Shown: piece by piece, positions 2,698 to 60,726 of the stretch
How positions within the stretch are numbered: the first letter of the stretch is position 1
Layout: every line of letters begins with the position of its first letter
Source: an uncultured Lachnoclostridium sp.
GTDB taxonomy: Bacteria; Bacillota; Clostridia; Lachnospirales; Lachnospiraceae
NCBI GenBank assembly: GCA_946402335.1
Contig: CAMIWE010000001.1
Coordinates: 1-64,000 of the forward strand
DNA: 64,000 bases
Direction: 5' to 3'
Program-made: the position numbers and the translations under genes
Notes under the pieces: generated by a model
Databases searched by the model: none
The model's input: only the letters and a program-made list of their open reading frames with translations
Told to the model about the DNA's origin: nothing

Positions 2698-5469
2698 TTA
2701 TGCAGAAGGCAGAATCTGCTTCTTCAAATATTTGTTTTCGAACTCCTCAAGCGGAATCGGACGCTCAAACAGGAATCCCTGCGCGGTCGTGAAACCGCAG
2801 TCCGAAAGGAAATCGGCCTGTTCCTTTGTTTCCACGCCTTCAAAAACCGCTTCCTTCTTTACGGAGGAAATCATATCGCACATGCAGCGGACATAGTTCT
2901 GCTCCATCTCGGAGTTGCCGATGCGCTGCAGGAAGGAACGTCCGATCTTAACAATATTGACCGGTGCATTGATCAGCATGGAAAGGGATTCCTTACCGGA
3001 ACCGAAATCATCAAGCGTGATCCGGAAACCGCGGTTCTGGAGGTCACGGATGGAATCGGCCGTGCCTTCCTTCTCCGCAAGGAGCATTTCCTCGTTTACT
3101 TCGATCTCAATGTATTTGCTCTCCACGCCGTACTGCTCGGCGAGACGGCTGATCCGCTCGTCGAACTTCTGGAAGCTCTGGTTGTTCTTGCTGAAGTTTA
3201 CGGAAATCGGTACCAGCTTCATGCCCTGCTTCTTCCAATCCTGCAAAGCCTGCAGCACATTGGTATAAATACAGAAGTCGAGGTCGGTAACATGGCCGGT
3301 CTTTTCAAGAATCGGCACGAAATCCGCCGGGTAGCGGTAAGTACCGTCGTCCGTAAGCCAGCGGGCAAGCGCTTCGGCGCCGATCAGCTCCTGGGTCTCA
3401 AGGGAGAACTTCGGCTGGAAGAATACTTCAATCCGGTTATTCTTGATTGCGTTCTGAATCTCACCGGCAATCGTCTGCTCATGGTTACGCTGTCTGCGGA
3501 GTTCCTCCGTATAGATCACATACGGATTGTCCTGGCCGTTCTTGGCCTGCTTTCTTGCAAGGTTCGCGTTATCCATCGCAAGCGGGATATCGTGGTCGTT
3601 CTTCTTTAAGAAGTACACGCCACTTGAGAGCTGGATGTCAATACCGGGATAAGCCTTCATCTGATGCTCAACGAATACCTTGGACCAGCTGCGGAGTTTC
3701 GCGATAACCTGATCCTTCGACTCGCCGTTTACATAGATAAGGAAATAGTCCGAATGGATTCTGCAGGCAAAGCACTTCTTGCCTTTGCGCTGGAACATTG
3801 CGGCAAATTCCCGGAGCATCCGGTCACCTGCCGGATAGCCGTATTTTTCGTTAATATACGAGAAATCATTGATATCGCAGTAGATAACCGCATGAACTGC
3901 GTCCATTTCCGGATCGGAGAGCGTCTCCTGCAACCGCGCGCGAAACGCGGTACGGTTATAAAGTCCGGTCAGACGGTCCGTGGAGGACAGACGGTTGATC
4001 AGCATACGGTCGTTGGTGCGCTCCTTACGGATCTTGCGCTCTTCGTCAATCTGCTCGATACGGCCGTAGATATGGGAAACCTTGCCCTGCTCGTCCTTGG
4101 CCGCCAGCAGGATCACTCTGCACCAGCGGTATTCCTTGCCGTCAATCTTCAGGCGGACTTCTCCTTTGGCGCTGTCACCGGTCGCCTGCGTATTCTCCAA
4201 AAGGGCAACGCAGGAATCGTAATCCTCTTCAAAGACGAATTTCTTTAAGAGATTCTTCTCCATGAAACGCGTGATGATGCTGTCCGTTCCGAGGGCCGTA
4301 GCCAGCTTGGTCGGCAGGTTGATGCGGTCGTCTGCGACACTGTAGCCGAACTGGATGTCATCGGAGGTTTCCTCGAGCTGACGGTAATGGTCCAGCTGAT
4401 GCTTCATCGACATCTCGGCATTAATACGCTTCGTGATTTCGGTAAATGCGCAGCTGATGATATTGGTTCCGTCTTCGCCGCGGCTTACCACAAGGGCATT
4501 GCAGTGTACCCACGTAACGCTTCCGTCGAAGCGGTTCACACGGAACTCCGCCTCATGGACGGTTTCGGGCTCTGCCTTCGGATCGAAAAGGCGGGCAACG
4601 TTCTTCACGTCGTCGGGAGCCACGATCTCGGTCAGATAATTGTTATGAATCGACGCAAACTGCTCCGCGGTATGGCCGATAATCTTATAAAAGGCTTCAT
4701 TGGCGTAATAAATCTCGGGTACGTTTTCATGGGAAACGCGGCCCTGGAACTCAAATACGGAAACACCGACCGGAAGCGTCGTAAGAAGGCTGTTCACCTG
4801 GCGCTTGCGGAGCATTTCCCCAGTCAGCTGGGTAATCGTGATATCGAACAGGCCGTTCTTCATCATCTTCTTCTGGCGGCGTACGAAGCACTGTACCGAT
4901 ACGACCTGTCCTTCGGCCGTCATGATGCGGTGCTCCATGCAGACTACCATCTGCTTGCGGATCTTCTCATCGAGGATTCTGCGAACCGTCTCCCGGTCAT
5001 CCTTATAGACAAGCGCCAGATAATCGGCCGTCGCGCCGTCCTTACGGTGTACGCCGAACATTTCCTCCACGCCGGCATCGCAGTCCACGATCGTGTACCG
5101 CGGGTCATCCTTTACTGTGCAGGTCCCGAAGTATACCTGGCGGGCATAGCCGTGTCCGGTCGGAATGCTCTTCGCGGAGCTGTCGCCCATCATCGACGTC
5201 AGGTAGGAAAGAAATTCCTCCTCTGCGGCAAATGTATTGAAAATCAGTTTCTTCGCACGTACATGCGACATGCAGATAAAAAGACATGAAAGGAAAATCG
5301 ACCACGTTAACGGATATGCCCCTCGTTCAATGGAACTGACCGTCTGTCTCGTGATTCCGATCTTCGCTCCGAATTCTTCCTGTGACTGCTTCATGGCCTT
5401 ACGGTAAACCGCCAGGTTCGCCGCAAAAATCTCAAGCAGTCTCTTCTTTTCATTTGCATCCAAATTCAT
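2698..5469 (-). CDS. XRE-type HTH + PAS + degenerate GGDEF + EAL protein (c-di-GMP phosphodiesterase-like)
   Basis: 923 aa; HTH (SQEEFGAKIGITRQTVSSIERG), PAS repeats, degenerate GGDEF (RIHSDYFLIY), intact EAL signature set (GAEALARW, VNEEM, DDFGSG, VKIGRSF, EGVET). Confidence 0.9.
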   Translation of the reverse strand: MNLDANEKKRLLEIFAANLAVYRKAMKQSQEEFGAKIGITRQTVSSIERGAYPLTWSIFLSCLFICMSHVRAKKLIFNTFAAEEEFLSYLTSMMGDSSAKSIPTGHGYARQVYFGTCTVKDDPRYTIVDCDAGVEEMFGVHRKDGATADYLALVYKDDRETVRRILDEKIRKQMVVCMEHRIMTAEGQVVSVQCFVRRQKKMMKNGLFDITITQLTGEMLRKRQVNSLLTTLPVGVSVFEFQGRVSHENVPEIYYANEAFYKIIGHTAEQFASIHNNYLTEIVAPDDVKNVARLFDPKAEPETVHEAEFRVNRFDGSVTWVHCNALVVSRGEDGTNIISCAFTEITKRINAEMSMKHQLDHYRQLEETSDDIQFGYSVADDRINLPTKLATALGTDSIITRFMEKNLLKKFVFEEDYDSCVALLENTQATGDSAKGEVRLKIDGKEYRWCRVILLAAKDEQGKVSHIYGRIEQIDEERKIRKERTNDRMLINRLSSTDRLTGLYNRTAFRARLQETLSDPEMDAVHAVIYCDINDFSYINEKYGYPAGDRMLREFAAMFQRKGKKCFACRIHSDYFLIYVNGESKDQVIAKLRSWSKVFVEHQMKAYPGIDIQLSSGVYFLKKNDHDIPLAMDNANLARKQAKNGQDNPYVIYTEELRRQRNHEQTIAGEIQNAIKNNRIEVFFQPKFSLETQELIGAEALARWLTDDGTYRYPADFVPILEKTGHVTDLDFCIYTNVLQALQDWKKQGMKLVPISVNFSKNNQSFQKFDERISRLAEQYGVESKYIEIEVNEEMLLAEKEGTADSIRDLQNRGFRITLDDFGSGKESLSMLINAPVNIVKIGRSFLQRIGNSEMEQNYVRCMCDMISSVKKEAVFEGVETKEQADFLSDCGFTTAQGFLFERPIPLEEFENKYLKKQILPSA

Positions 5470-22291: not shown

Positions 22292-23335
22292 TTATTTCAC
22301 ATCATACGGCACATAGCCGTTCTCTCTGGCAATACGCGCACCGTTCTCGCCCTGTACCCATGCAATAATGTCGCGGACGATACTGTCGGCAGGAAGGTCT
22401 TTTCTTGTTACGATCTGTGAAAAATTCAGGAACGGATACTGTCCCTTGGAAATCGTTTCGTCGCTCGGAATGACGCCGTCAATGCCGAGCAGCTTGATTT
22501 TTTCACTGCCGTGCATATTCGCGACATAATAGTAGTAGGAAAACGACATGGCTCCTTTGCCGTTATCATAATCCGCAACACGATCAATCGCGCCCATCAT
22601 GGCATCCACGGCATACTCCTTCTCGGCTTTCTTAACCTGCTCCTTCGGAAGCACATAGCGGTAAAGTCCGGTCTGGCTTCCGGAGCCCTCATTCCGCTGG
22701 AACAGGACAATCGGCTCATCGTTTCCGCCGACCTGCTTCCAGTTCGTAATCTTTCCGCTTACGATTCCCTTAAGCTGCTCCTGCGTAATGCTGTTCACCG
22801 GGTTCTCACGGTTTACGAAGAAGACAAATCCGCCGCTTAATATCGTGTGGTACTCAAACTCCACACCGGCATCCTCCGCGGCCTTTACCTGCTCATCGCT
22901 CGGCAGCGCGCAGAAGATCATGTCTGCTTTGCCGTTGGTCAGATTTTCATAAGCAGAAGGCGTGTTGTTGCACGGCAGAAACATCTTCGCATCCTCAACG
23001 GAAATCCCCATCAGCTCGGCAAATACGGCGTCATAGAACGGCTCAAGCGCCAGGGCTCCGTCCACTACCGGAAGCTTGTCCGCAGGCAGCGGATCCACGC
23101 CGAAACGAAATTCGGGAACCGGCGTGGGCGTCGGCGTCTCGGTCGGTTTCGGTGCCTCGGTAGGCGTCGCGGTCGGCGTCGGAGTATCCGTAACAACAGG
23201 GGTATCCGTAGGAACCTCCGTTACCGTCGCAGGATGCAGATCTTCGGGCGTCGGGGTAGTTTTCTTTCCGCATGCGAAAAGAAACAGTACCCCAAGCAGC
23301 GTTATCATAAGCAGTTTTAACTTTCTGATTGACAT
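22292..23335 (-). CDS. PstS-like phosphate-type substrate-binding lipoprotein
   Basis: Start MSIRKLKLL; lipobox LFACGK; Thr-Pro linker; GKITNWKQVGG, NEGSGSQ. Confidence 0.85.
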   Translation of the reverse strand: MSIRKLKLLMITLLGVLFLFACGKKTTPTPEDLHPATVTEVPTDTPVVTDTPTPTATPTEAPKPTETPTPTPVPEFRFGVDPLPADKLPVVDGALALEPFYDAVFAELMGISVEDAKMFLPCNNTPSAYENLTNGKADMIFCALPSDEQVKAAEDAGVEFEYHTILSGGFVFFVNRENPVNSITQEQLKGIVSGKITNWKQVGGNDEPIVLFQRNEGSGSQTGLYRYVLPKEQVKKAEKEYAVDAMMGAIDRVADYDNGKGAMSFSYYYYVANMHGSEKIKLLGIDGVIPSDETISKGQYPFLNFSQIVTRKDLPADSIVRDIIAWVQGENGARIARENGYVPYDVK

Positions 23336-23352
23336 TTTTAAATCCCCCTTTT

Positions 23353-25389
23353 TCATTCCTGCAATCCGTCAAACGGATAACCTTCATAGCAGCGGAAATG
23401 CCGCATCACATTAATCTCCGAGAAAGGTTCTTCCCATCCCTCTCCGAAAAACATCTTGTCTATGGTTCCTGTCGGGTAATGACCTTCGAGTTGCTGCATC
23501 AGTTCCTCATCAGGCACCTTCCATCCGGATTCATTCAACGGAAAATCAAAATAAAACGAGTGTTGTGTAATGTTCCATCTCGGACTAAGATCCATCGAAC
23601 CGATATGCGGTGCCAGAAGCGCTGCGCAATACCCCGCCTGTTCTTCGCTCATTCCATTTCCGGTCAGGAACAATTCCCGCAACAGGTCTTCGTAGGAACA
23701 GTCAAGGATATCCTCGGTTTCAATATACTTGCCGTCCTTCATCCAGAACACATCCTCGCCTCCGCCGATATACCAGCCGCGCCAGCCTTCGACATCCAAA
23801 TGAAGACGCACCTCGGTATATCCGTTCGGATAAATATACGCATAACTCGGAACGGCCACGAACGAATTCTGGGGGGTCTCGGAATTTCCCCGATAAATCC
23901 AATGCTTTTCCGCCCACTGTTTGGTCGCTTTCAATACGACATCCTGCGCAATCCGGTAACGTGCGTTTTCTTTCATCTTGAAATCAAACGGGTTATAGGC
24001 GCGAAGGCCGGTCTTGTCGCACAAAACCTGGATTTTGACGGTTCCGAGGTCCTTTGTTTTTACGGAAAATGTGCCCGCCACAGCCGGTATATATCCGGTT
24101 GTTTCGAGTTTTCTCCCGGTAAGACTCTCTAACGGATAGGGATCAAAACATATCTTTCCGGTCAAATTGTCCTCGCCTGCAGGTTCGGGGATTTTCTCCC
24201 ATAACGGAACTTCCAGATAGCCGTCCCGGAAATAATCCGACCAGATCCGGATTACATCAACGCCGCCACCTGTTGTATACGCAAAGCTTTCCCCGCCGGT
24301 AAGCCCGGGAAATGCGGTTCGTCCGTCATATTCCCTGGCCTCACTGTAGTCTTCATACAATCCGTTCCAATACGCATAGTTCAGCCGGCTGACGATTTCA
24401 TCATTCAGCTTTTCGAGATAGTTCTCACCCTCAGGGAACAAGTCCGACATACATACCTGTTCTCCGGTTTTCAGATTAAACGTAAGTGCCTGTTCTTCCT
24501 GAATCTGGTAAAGGATTGCCGTTGTTCCCAGAGGATCGGTGGCTTTCGGTACAAAGTGGTAGTCTTCGGTAAACTGAAAATGGTAATAGTCGTCGAACGG
24601 CCATTGTCCCTTCGCATAGTCCCAATAATCCTCATAGTTTTCAAAATACTTGATCTCTCTCCACTGAAGGGTCAGGCGTATTTCAACGGAACAGTATCCT
24701 GCCTGATTCTCACCATAAGAATAAAGATATGTCTCAACCACCCGTTCCGGCTTTTCTTTGTTCTTCAAAATTGTTTGAATGCCGGAAACATTCGGAATAT
24801 AAGAGGGATTCGCCAGTGTTTTGACTACTTCATCAATCCGGGCATTGATCTTCTTTTGAATATCCTCATCCAGCCCGGAAATATGAATGGTTTTGATTCC
24901 CTGCTCGTCGTAACGAACCAGCGACCTGCCGGAACTGCTTTCGTAATTAGCAAACATGAGTTCCCGCGTCTCAAGCGAATATCTCCGGTCAATGCCGTAC
25001 TCTATATTCAATCGGTCCTGTTCACTGTACGTCGGTCCGGTACCAAGCGCTGAATACTCCTGCTTCGGCTTTACCACCTCATGCAGCTCGCGGTTTCTTG
25101 CGAGCGCTTCCGCGGAAGAATAATCCACCGGCGTCGGCGTAGGCGTCGGTGTCGGTGTTGGTGTCGGTGCTTTGGTGGGAACCGGTGTCGACGTGGGCCG
25201 GCTTGTCGGTGTAACGGTTCCTCCCCCTTCGCCTCCCGGTGTTACCGACACGGTCAGTTCCAGTCCCCTGGATGTCCCCGGCGTAGGCCTTTTGGTCCCG
25301 CAGGCAATCACCGTTCCTGCCATAAGACAGCCGACGGCCAGCGCCGCCATCCCCTTCCGTACTCTTCTGATACGTGTCCTCTCTTTCAT
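23353..25389 (-). CDS. Lipoprotein with Thr-Pro linker and DUF3298/RsiV-like C-terminal region
   Basis: Start MKERTRIRRVRKG; lipobox GTVIACG; (TP)n linker; ALTFNLKTGEQVCMSDLFPEGENYLEKLNDEIVSRL. Confidence 0.65.
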   Translation of the reverse strand: MKERTRIRRVRKGMAALAVGCLMAGTVIACGTKRPTPGTSRGLELTVSVTPGGEGGGTVTPTSRPTSTPVPTKAPTPTPTPTPTPTPVDYSSAEALARNRELHEVVKPKQEYSALGTGPTYSEQDRLNIEYGIDRRYSLETRELMFANYESSSGRSLVRYDEQGIKTIHISGLDEDIQKKINARIDEVVKTLANPSYIPNVSGIQTILKNKEKPERVVETYLYSYGENQAGYCSVEIRLTLQWREIKYFENYEDYWDYAKGQWPFDDYYHFQFTEDYHFVPKATDPLGTTAILYQIQEEQALTFNLKTGEQVCMSDLFPEGENYLEKLNDEIVSRLNYAYWNGLYEDYSEAREYDGRTAFPGLTGGESFAYTTGGGVDVIRIWSDYFRDGYLEVPLWEKIPEPAGEDNLTGKICFDPYPLESLTGRKLETTGYIPAVAGTFSVKTKDLGTVKIQVLCDKTGLRAYNPFDFKMKENARYRIAQDVVLKATKQWAEKHWIYRGNSETPQNSFVAVPSYAYIYPNGYTEVRLHLDVEGWRGWYIGGGEDVFWMKDGKYIETEDILDCSYEDLLRELFLTGNGMSEEQAGYCAALLAPHIGSMDLSPRWNITQHSFYFDFPLNESGWKVPDEELMQQLEGHYPTGTIDKMFFGEGWEEPFSEINVMRHFRCYEGYPFDGLQE

Positions 25390-25405: not shown

Positions 25406-26428
25406 TTATTTCTCTCCCAACATCCTCGCGCAACGCGGGGATTCATACAATCGGCCATGCACAAAAAAGTTATACGAACGGCACCCGCCCGCGCAGTATG
25501 CACCTAATTCGCAGGTCGCGCAGGCGCCGGTCAGCATGCTTTTATCGAATTTCCGGTTATAGGCAAATGCGTTCTCGTCCTCCCAGATTTCCCGAAGACT
25601 CCGCTCCCGCAGATTCCCTTCGTTGAAACGCTCGTCGTACATTGACTCGCAGCCCCGCACGTTTCCGACGCTGTCGATACCGATGGACGAGAGCCCCGCG
25701 CGGCAGCCCGTGTAGTAGGCGTGTCCGTTCAGATTGCCCCGAAGGCTTCCTTCGCCGGGGGTAAAGTAGCCGATATTGTCCGCGATTCCCATAAGAAACG
25801 GTGCCTTATGCATATGGCTTTCGACAAATGCAATGACCTCCCTCGGGTCAAATGCGATATCAATCCCGCCGTTGGCCGCATTGCCCATCGGCGAGCAGGC
25901 CTGCAGCTGCCAGGCGAAGATGCCGCTGTTTTTTAATATTTCGTACAGTTCGGGCAGATGCGGTGCATTGTCCGCATTCAGCGTGCTGATGACCGATACC
26001 GGGATTTTGGCACAGAGGAGTGCCTTGATCGCCCGGATGGCACGGTCGTAGCTGCCCTCCTGCCGGTATTTGTCATGGATTTCCTTCGGACCGTCCAGGG
26101 AGACCGAAACCGACTCGATCCGAAGGCTTTTCAATTCGGAAAGAAGGCTTCCCGTAAACAGAAAGCCGTTCGTAATAATGTTGACGGCAATTCCGTTTTC
26201 GATAAGCCTTCCGACGATTTCCTTCCAGTCTTTGCGCATGAAAACTTCACCGCCGATCATGGACACGCGGCGGCAGCCAAGTTCCTTAAGCTGATCGGCA
26301 ACCGACAGGCATTCCTGTGTGCCGAGCTCGTTCGCGCGGGCTCTTCCGCCCGCGGAACCGCAGTATTTGCAGGAGAAACAGCATGCAAGCGTGATCTCCC
26401 ATACGCATTGTTTTAAATGATATTTCAT
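25406..26428 (-). CDS. Radical SAM/SPASM domain peptide-modifying-type enzyme
   Basis: 340 aa from ATG 26428 (AAAGGAG RBS); WEITLACCFSCKYCGS (CxxxCxxC), GGEVF, SPASM cysteines CRAG...RGCES...CATCELGAYCAGGCRSYN...SPRC. Confidence 0.92.
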   Translation of the reverse strand: MKYHLKQCVWEITLACCFSCKYCGSAGGRARANELGTQECLSVADQLKELGCRRVSMIGGEVFMRKDWKEIVGRLIENGIAVNIITNGFLFTGSLLSELKSLRIESVSVSLDGPKEIHDKYRQEGSYDRAIRAIKALLCAKIPVSVISTLNADNAPHLPELYEILKNSGIFAWQLQACSPMGNAANGGIDIAFDPREVIAFVESHMHKAPFLMGIADNIGYFTPGEGSLRGNLNGHAYYTGCRAGLSSIGIDSVGNVRGCESMYDERFNEGNLRERSLREIWEDENAFAYNRKFDKSMLTGACATCELGAYCAGGCRSYNFFVHGRLYESPRCARMLGEK

Positions 26429-26450
26429 TGGGACTCCTTTTCGGACAATC

Positions 26451-26927
26451 CTAACAGGTTCGCGTTCCTTCCGGCCTTCCGAGCACTTTGGTGCCGCACA
26501 TAACGCAGAATTTGTACTCCGGCTTAAGCGGGTAGCCGCATTCATGGCAGAATTTCGGCGTCGGGGTTGCCTCGTCCTTCGGGACATTAATCATTCCGGG
26601 TCTCGGAAGCGGCGGTGCGGCATAAACAAGCATCATCGTCGGCCGGTTCACTTCCTCAGGCTCCTCCGGCACGGCGGGACCGGCGTAGACGTCTTCCGTC
26701 ACCGCCTGTTTGGCCTGCTCCATCATGCTGGGAAATCCGAACGGCTGCTCGGCTTTCTGTGCGAAGTATCCGGGGCCTGCATAAACGCACATGAACTGTC
26801 TCGGATCGACAGCCGGCGCCGGCTTCTCCTCTACGGGCTTTTCCTCTATGCTCTGCTCCGTGACGGTATCCTCTTCCGTGATGCTGTCCGGGTATTTCTT
26901 ATCCTTCAAATCTTCAAAATCAGCCAT
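26451..26927 (-). CDS. 158-aa protein with three VYA[G/A]P motifs and C-terminal zinc ribbon; candidate radical-SAM substrate
   Basis: FMCVYAGPGYF, EDVYAGPAVP, MLVYAAPPLP; CHECGYPLKPEYKFCVMCGTKV; 22 bp upstream of radical SAM gene. Confidence 0.75.
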   Translation of the reverse strand: MADFEDLKDKKYPDSITEEDTVTEQSIEEKPVEEKPAPAVDPRQFMCVYAGPGYFAQKAEQPFGFPSMMEQAKQAVTEDVYAGPAVPEEPEEVNRPTMMLVYAAPPLPRPGMINVPKDEATPTPKFCHECGYPLKPEYKFCVMCGTKVLGRPEGTRTC

Positions 26928-26943
26928 ATTGCACTCTCCTTTC

Positions 26944-60459: not shown

Positions 60460-60726
60460 GCCGTGCAGCCGGGGAGATAGCGGTGCCCTGAACCTGCAAT
60501 CCGCTATAGCAGGGGTGATGGCATATCGCGGGCGTACCTACGGGAAGCCGCCCAAAGTAAGTGGTAATGACGTCCGGGTCTTACGCAATGGAAATCCGTG
60601 AACCGTGTCAGGGCAGGAATGCAGCAGCACTAAGCAGAATCTTTCATGTGCCGTAAGGAAGCCTGGACCGAGCTAACTGCTTTGGTAACGTTTCCGAAAG
60701 TCGCTCAACATATGCCGCACGGTTTT
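60460..60726 (+). ncRNA. ffs: Signal recognition particle RNA, large type
   Basis: Ends pair (GCCGTGC...GCACGGT); conserved core GTGTCAGGGCAGGAATGCAGCAGCACTAAGCAGA. Confidence 0.93.

Follow-up and report, generated by a model that had tools for sequence, protein, structure and literature searches.

A splicease-like radical SAM/SPASM enzyme and an adjoining VYA[GA]P-repeat protein form a conserved gene pair of gut and rumen Clostridia

A radical SAM/SPASM enzyme and a protein with repeated VYA[GA]P motifs, encoded side by side in the window (the whole stretch of DNA that was analysed, 64,000 nucleotides from an uncultured Lachnoclostridium sp.), are a conserved two-gene pair of gut and rumen Clostridia. 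Spliceases are bacterial enzymes that remove most of a tyrosine from a protein backbone and reconnect the two ends. Judging from the kinship of the enzyme and the form of the motif, a likely reading of the pair is that of a stand-alone splicease module, in which tyramine would be excised at V-Y-A at several sites of the repeat protein. The initial annotation had proposed a peptide-modification pair with multiple core sites recognized through a zinc ribbon; the conserved pair and the multiple sites stand, while the role of the zinc ribbon does not.

Results

The gene pair in the window

The two genes fill positions 25406-26927, exactly as initially annotated, with the following features.

25406..26428, (-) strand: radical SAM/SPASM enzyme of 340 aa, assigned to the splicease-type clade (PF04055, PF13186, TIGR04103/TIGR03913 scores, trees)
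25430..25705, (-) strand: SPASM domain cysteines C242-C333 (PF13186 and alignment)
26360..26383, (-) strand: CxxxCxxC radical SAM cluster motif, C16-C23, invariant in the enzyme alignment
26451..26927, (-) strand: candidate substrate protein of 158 aa, acidic and Pro-rich, with three VYA[GA]P motifs and a C-terminal zinc ribbon (homologues)
26496..26549, (-) strand: zinc ribbon CHEC...CVMC, aa 127-144 (PF13240; in 51/63 homologues)
26613..26627, (-) strand: candidate core site 3, VYAAP, aa 101-105, Tyr102 (motif conservation)
26676..26690, (-) strand: candidate core site 2, VYAGP, aa 80-84, Tyr81 (motif conservation)
26772..26786, (-) strand: candidate core site 1, VYAGP, aa 48-52, Tyr49 (motif conservation)
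26883..26900, (-) strand: candidate recognition element KKYPDS, aa 10-15 (YP motif in 61/63 homologous proteins)
26934..26940, (-) strand: ribosome-binding site AGGAGAG of the substrate gene (sequence)

The 158-aa ORF is as first described, with three spaced motifs in the contexts CVYAGPGYF (aa 47-55), DVYAGPAVP (79-87) and LVYAAPPLP (100-108). Towards the C-terminus follows a zinc ribbon (C127/C130/C141/C144), for which PF13240 scores 28.5 bits against a cut-off of 25 bits. The rest of the chain, initially called acidic, Pro-rich and probably disordered, has low pLDDT and looks in line with disorder; the AlphaFold (AF2) model has a mean pLDDT of 65 and exceeds 80 only in the zinc-ribbon stretch. 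The enzyme gene starts with an ATG at 26428 on the same strand, 22 bp past the stop of the 158-aa gene, and an AGGAG-type site precedes both genes, in agreement with the strong RBS first noted for each. Both cysteine sets attributed to the enzyme are complete, C16/C20/C23 for the radical SAM cluster and C242, C260, C303, C306, C312, C316 and C333 for the seven-cysteine SPASM set, and all are invariant or nearly so in an alignment of relatives. The domain scores (PF04055, 81.5 bits; PF13186 SPASM, 34 bits) are both above cut-off, and the AF2 model (pLDDT 89.9) shows a plain radical SAM and SPASM fold, without further domains at either end. A structure search returns SkfB, PqqE and SuiB, a result that does not tell one SPASM reaction from another, and the PDB matches include no splicease structure.

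Elsewhere in the window, two Thr-Pro-repeat lipoprotein-like genes lie downstream of the pair (22292-25389, (-) strand), one with a phosphate-binding-protein-like domain (PF12849) and the other of no known family, and a Bacterial large SRP RNA (Rfam RF01854, 192 bits) is found at 60461-60722 on the (+) strand.

Conservation of the pair

A scan of genome contigs yielded 57 close relatives of the enzyme, at 59-95% identity and almost all of them in assemblies of ruminant or gut Clostridia, and at 56 of these 57 loci an adjacent motif-bearing frame ends within ~100 bp of the enzyme start; the gap between the two genes has a median of 8 bp in this set, and they often overlap. The exception is L057, where the neighbors of the enzyme are unrelated and no motif protein is adjacent. 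Whole-genome searches added loci L122, L125-L129, L165 and L166, all with an adjacent motif protein, which at L128 lies downstream of the enzyme gene and converges on it; at L165 there is one motif protein on each side of the enzyme gene, and two are also present at L049 and L086. Altogether, the motif protein adjoins the SPASM enzyme gene in 65 of 66 loci (56/57, 6, 2 and the window), as the initial pairing of the two would predict. Clustering of all neighbors across loci revealed no third conserved gene, and no conserved protease, transporter or RRE gene near the pair. A wider conserved gene cluster was rejected, as the neighboring ksgA recurs in only 7 loci.

Ten of 299 genomes of the bacterial family, that of the window included, carry a VYAGP-type enzyme. 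Because a search with the 158-aa protein retrieves mostly other zinc ribbons, the protein query was replaced by a double-motif DNA pattern. The sensitivity of this pattern is limited: it would recover 43 of the 67 loci known, and the window escapes it. In-frame double VYAGP-type matches to the pattern fall in four of the 299 genomes, all of them enzyme-positive. In genomes without the enzyme, the pattern matched a CRISPR-like repeat array, a coincidence that is frame-shifted, a stop-interrupted pair and repeats of an unrelated protein. The repeat of the CRISPR-like array (G084:C12 ~76459-77264; L174, L176-L186) holds TATGCGGGGCC, a mimic of YAGP codons, and the unrelated protein (L171) is RDD-like, with RYAGPLQGG repeats.

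The VYA[GA]P motif

The 63 homologous proteins contain 301 motifs, 1-10 per protein, collected with a search expression that fixes Y, P and the allowed residue class at positions -1 and +2 and leaves the frequencies at -1, +1 and +2 free. Position -1 is V in 85% (A 6, L 6, I 2), the position after the Tyr is A in 87% (G 3, M 3, N 2) and +2 is G in 86% (A 10), with P at +3; the residues that follow are often E/G/D, then Y/F/M-F/M. These 301 relaxed motifs compare with 7.4 in per-protein shuffles (maximum 17 in 1000), and the 223 of strict form, VYA[GA]P, with 0.06 in composition shuffles. Half of all tyrosines in the 63 proteins (301/599) lie within a motif, and most of the remaining sequence is not conserved. 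For the window protein, which has three, at least one VYA[GA]P arises in only 159 of 200,000 composition shuffles. Across its own genome, a draft of 2.42 Mb in 116 contigs that is 86% complete, a loose DNA pattern for the motif stays at background level once the pair is set aside (60 matches vs 120 for a reversed control). The YA[GA]P positions are conserved and multiplied, as would be expected of the multiple core sites initially proposed. A 2022 splicease survey by Scott et al. (Chem 8, 2659) reportedly speaks of peptides and proteins in its title; the literature searched here, which did not extend to that survey, contained no mention of VYAGP.

A candidate recognition element

A Tyr-Pro motif (KKYPDS, KPYPENY and KYPWIKS types) is present in 61 of the 63 proteins, against an average of 40 and at most 51 in shuffles. 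In KKYPDS of the 158-aa protein, Y12 and P13 are invariant among 14 aligned homologues. The two proteins lacking a YP motif belong to L053, where a contig end cuts the protein, and L086, where the second motif protein starts GKKYPD. Its location varies within the proteins, which sets the motif apart from a classical N-terminal leader. A zinc ribbon, mostly C-terminal, is found in 51 of the 63 and is missing or degenerate in the other 12; we rejected it on this count as a universal recognition domain, and the leader-like role first assigned to it finds no support. In one case (L129/L162) the carrier has Ser/Thr kinase and FHA domains, and TTTVYAAP and RPYPYSF lie in the linker that joins the two; at L162 (8105-9370 and 7114-8136) the carrier gene immediately precedes that of a VYAGP-clade enzyme, and SPFH/zinc-ribbon genes belong to the same run. 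Considering the wider distribution of the YP motif and its occurrence in this kinase-FHA carrier, we propose that the short motif is a better candidate recognition element than the zinc ribbon.

Kinship of the enzyme

Among curated models the enzyme scores highest with TIGR04103 (241 bits), then TIGR03913 (215 bits), the next being TIGR04133, WgkB and MftC at no more than 142 bits; the TIGR04103 score is ~100 bits above every family except TIGR03913. We take the subclass IPR026482 to be TIGR04103, and hence TIGR04103 to be the splicease family of PlpX. Because 241 bits is below the equivalog cut-off of 725, we call the enzyme splicease-like and not a member of the TIGR04103 family. PlpX, which belongs to IPR026482 (PMC11002830), is the founding splicease and excises tyramine at X-Y-G (Morinaka et al. 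2018, as cited in PMC11002830 and PMC10533398); the published PlpXY tag, PIRPLYGLPI (PMC10533398), has the same Y-x-x-P spacing as VYAGP. The Nostoc C057 plasmid enzyme, a full member at 853 bits with TIGR04103, is 35% identical to the window enzyme and adjoins a Nif11 precursor that ends SIALYGLPPELF, with ALYGLPPELF as its last residues, and a 71-residue downstream protein in the position of PlpY. The peptides associated with TIGR03913, a family for which our literature search found no paper establishing the function, carry LYAAG, MYAAS, PYGAG, MLYGGA, KPYGVA and PMYMAT, so that here too G, A or M is tolerated after the Tyr.

Enzymes of a sister clade (38% identity), TPR fusions from Butyrivibrio, Kineothrix, Fibrobacter and others, adjoin KYGYP or KYGVP repeat proteins with up to ~ten KYGYP(C) repeats (L096-L107, L131, L132, L134; e.g. 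L099:2078-2947 and 2992-4428), and these KYGYP-repeat proteins are likely multi-site splicease substrates. We do not claim a Chagasin-like inhibitor domain in them, as Inhibitor_I42 matches one of eight members at E 0.15. Next to other members of the clade, peptides containing AYGIARP or IAYAVVP are encoded. At L130 (331-2814), small peptides with VAYAVTTTP and IAYAVVP, possibly exported X-Y-A peptides, have a clade enzyme and a C39-peptidase-like gene as neighbors, and at L135 (2687-2950) an 87-aa protein with five YGVP repeats (KYGVP, EYGVP, MYGVP) is divergent from a clade enzyme. VYAGP and KYGYP systems occur together in one genome of the window's genus (G189; L121 and L134).

Maximum-likelihood trees place the VYAGP, TIGR04103, TIGR03913 and sister-clade enzymes in one group (SH-aLRT 98), with MftC, NirJ, AhbD-like, TIGR04347 and TIGR04133-like enzymes as outgroups; the trees were built by quick search, and long branches between the three clades leave their joining order unfixed. 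The signatures WQxQ(x4)[PA]MG and xIGY[YF] are shared by nearly all splicease-type members and by none of nine outgroup sequences. By grouping and shared signatures, the enzyme is assigned to the splicease-type clade, outside the TIGR04103 equivalog. The initial annotation, which could tie the pair to no named RiPP class, is corrected here: the enzyme clades with the TIGR04103 splicease and the motif resembles X-Y-[G/A]-x-P. To our knowledge, no member of the VYAGP-type enzyme clade has been tested. A second radical SAM/SPASM enzyme of the window genome (L160, G000:C33:23581-24597) is TIGR04133-like, at 280 bits vs a cut-off of 425.

Discussion

We consider the following scenario for the pair. 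The enzyme would be recruited to the 158-aa protein, probably by KKYP, the short motif close to the N-terminus of that protein. From the Tyr of each V-Y-A-[G/A]-P site, the tyramine part (C8H9NO) would be removed and the Val carbonyl joined to the leftover Tyr carbonyl, leaving an alpha-keto-beta-valine (a ketoamide) before Ala-Gly-Pro; up to three ketoamides might form per molecule, ~-405.2 Da in all. Given the lack of a conserved peptidase, transporter or RRE gene alongside, the product would probably be a full-length cytoplasmic protein with several electrophilic ketoamides, not a secreted small peptide. Among the points against the splicease reading are the enzyme's TIGR04103 score, which falls far short of the cut-off, and the motif, which is mostly Y-A while PlpX has been shown to act on Y-G; the missing match to a PlpY-like partner and the long branches between the clades also count against it.

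Comparison with PlpXY of Pleurocapsa PCC 7319 illustrates both sides. The two systems share an enzyme of the same clade, a substrate encoded next door, and an X-Y-small-x-P site (LYGLP and VYAGP) of which a precursor may hold several. Unlike the PlpXY site, the motif of the present family is mostly Y-A instead of Y-G (X-Y-A in 87% of the 301 motifs, X-Y-G in 3%), and the substrate is neither Nif11 nor NHLP but has a zinc ribbon and a YP motif; no PlpY gene is seen and no RiPP cluster surrounds the pair. The single short query that found no PlpY-like protein in the window's own, 86%-complete genome is a weak test. The second-best model, TIGR03913 (GDL-motif peptide/DUF1843-associated maturase), shares the WQxQ signature, and its peptides have an X-Y-[G/A/M] site near the N-terminus, but they are small paralogous DUF1843 peptides in threes, with one site each and no zinc ribbon. 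The KYGYP-repeat system is also a two-gene module with a multi-site protein upstream of an enzyme 38% identical to ours, differing in the C-terminal TPR part of its enzyme and in a substrate with a folded-looking N-terminal domain and no zinc ribbon.

The chief alternative has the enzyme acting on these sites by a different radical reaction centred on Tyr, for example one that joins Val to Tyr through a C-C or ether bond (cyclophane-like, -2 Da per site). SPASM enzymes are chemically varied, MftC (~30% identity) carries out an oxidative decarboxylation of Tyr and links this residue to the Val next to it (PMC8326336), and the strong preference for Val at -1 differs from splicease sites elsewhere, which have M, L or K. 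We nevertheless think such chemistry rather unlikely: clade placement and signatures side with TIGR04103 and not with MftC, position -1 also accepts A, L and I, and all motif sites are internal, which makes MftC-type decarboxylation impossible. The mycofactocin parallel drawn initially is weakened in the same way; MftC is a SPASM enzyme that does act on Val-Tyr, but only as a C-terminal dipeptide and with an MftB partner, and it lies outside the splicease-type clade and lacks its signatures. The window enzyme scores 137 bits with the MftC model vs a cut-off of 265, and no MftB-like gene is adjacent to the pair. Mycofactocin-like chemistry is disfavoured by the tree position and the signatures.

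Less probable still is a role of the repeat protein as partner or scaffold of the enzyme (RRE-like or for delivery), with VYAGP as a binding motif and the true substrate elsewhere. Zinc ribbons are common interaction modules and neither a separate RRE nor a PlpY gene is conserved; against this, motif number ranges from 1 to 10 while most of the remaining protein is not conserved, some loci have two motif proteins (L049, L086, L165), the L129 motif sits in a kinase-FHA protein, and a related system reacts at X-Y-G. A chance neighborhood, in which the motifs would be structural low-complexity repeats without a tie to the enzyme, might be suspected from the Pro/Glu-rich, disordered-looking protein and from the RYAGPLQGG repeats of the RDD-like protein, but is hardly credible, since the two genes lie side by side at 65 of 66 loci across Clostridia and no further neighbor is conserved.

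If the pair is indeed a splicease module, few splicease substrates having been characterised in the literature searched, the 301 natural sites in 63 proteins would provide a V-Y-A-G-P substrate profile, and the family would extend the splicease site from Y-G to Y-A. It suggests single-gene enzymes that work without PlpY and with a short recognition tag, and may provide new means to introduce ketoamide handles into proteins. In a broader view, which we hold tentatively and regard as somewhat doubtful, backbone splicing would be a protein modification of gut and rumen Clostridia, carried out by stand-alone two-gene modules with a YP tag, making up to ten ketoamide beta-residues per cytoplasmic protein, in one case in a kinase-FHA linker, and dispensing with leader, RRE and export. 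The question this raises is what an anaerobe would gain from a cytoplasmic protein that bears many electrophiles resembling those of protease inhibitors.
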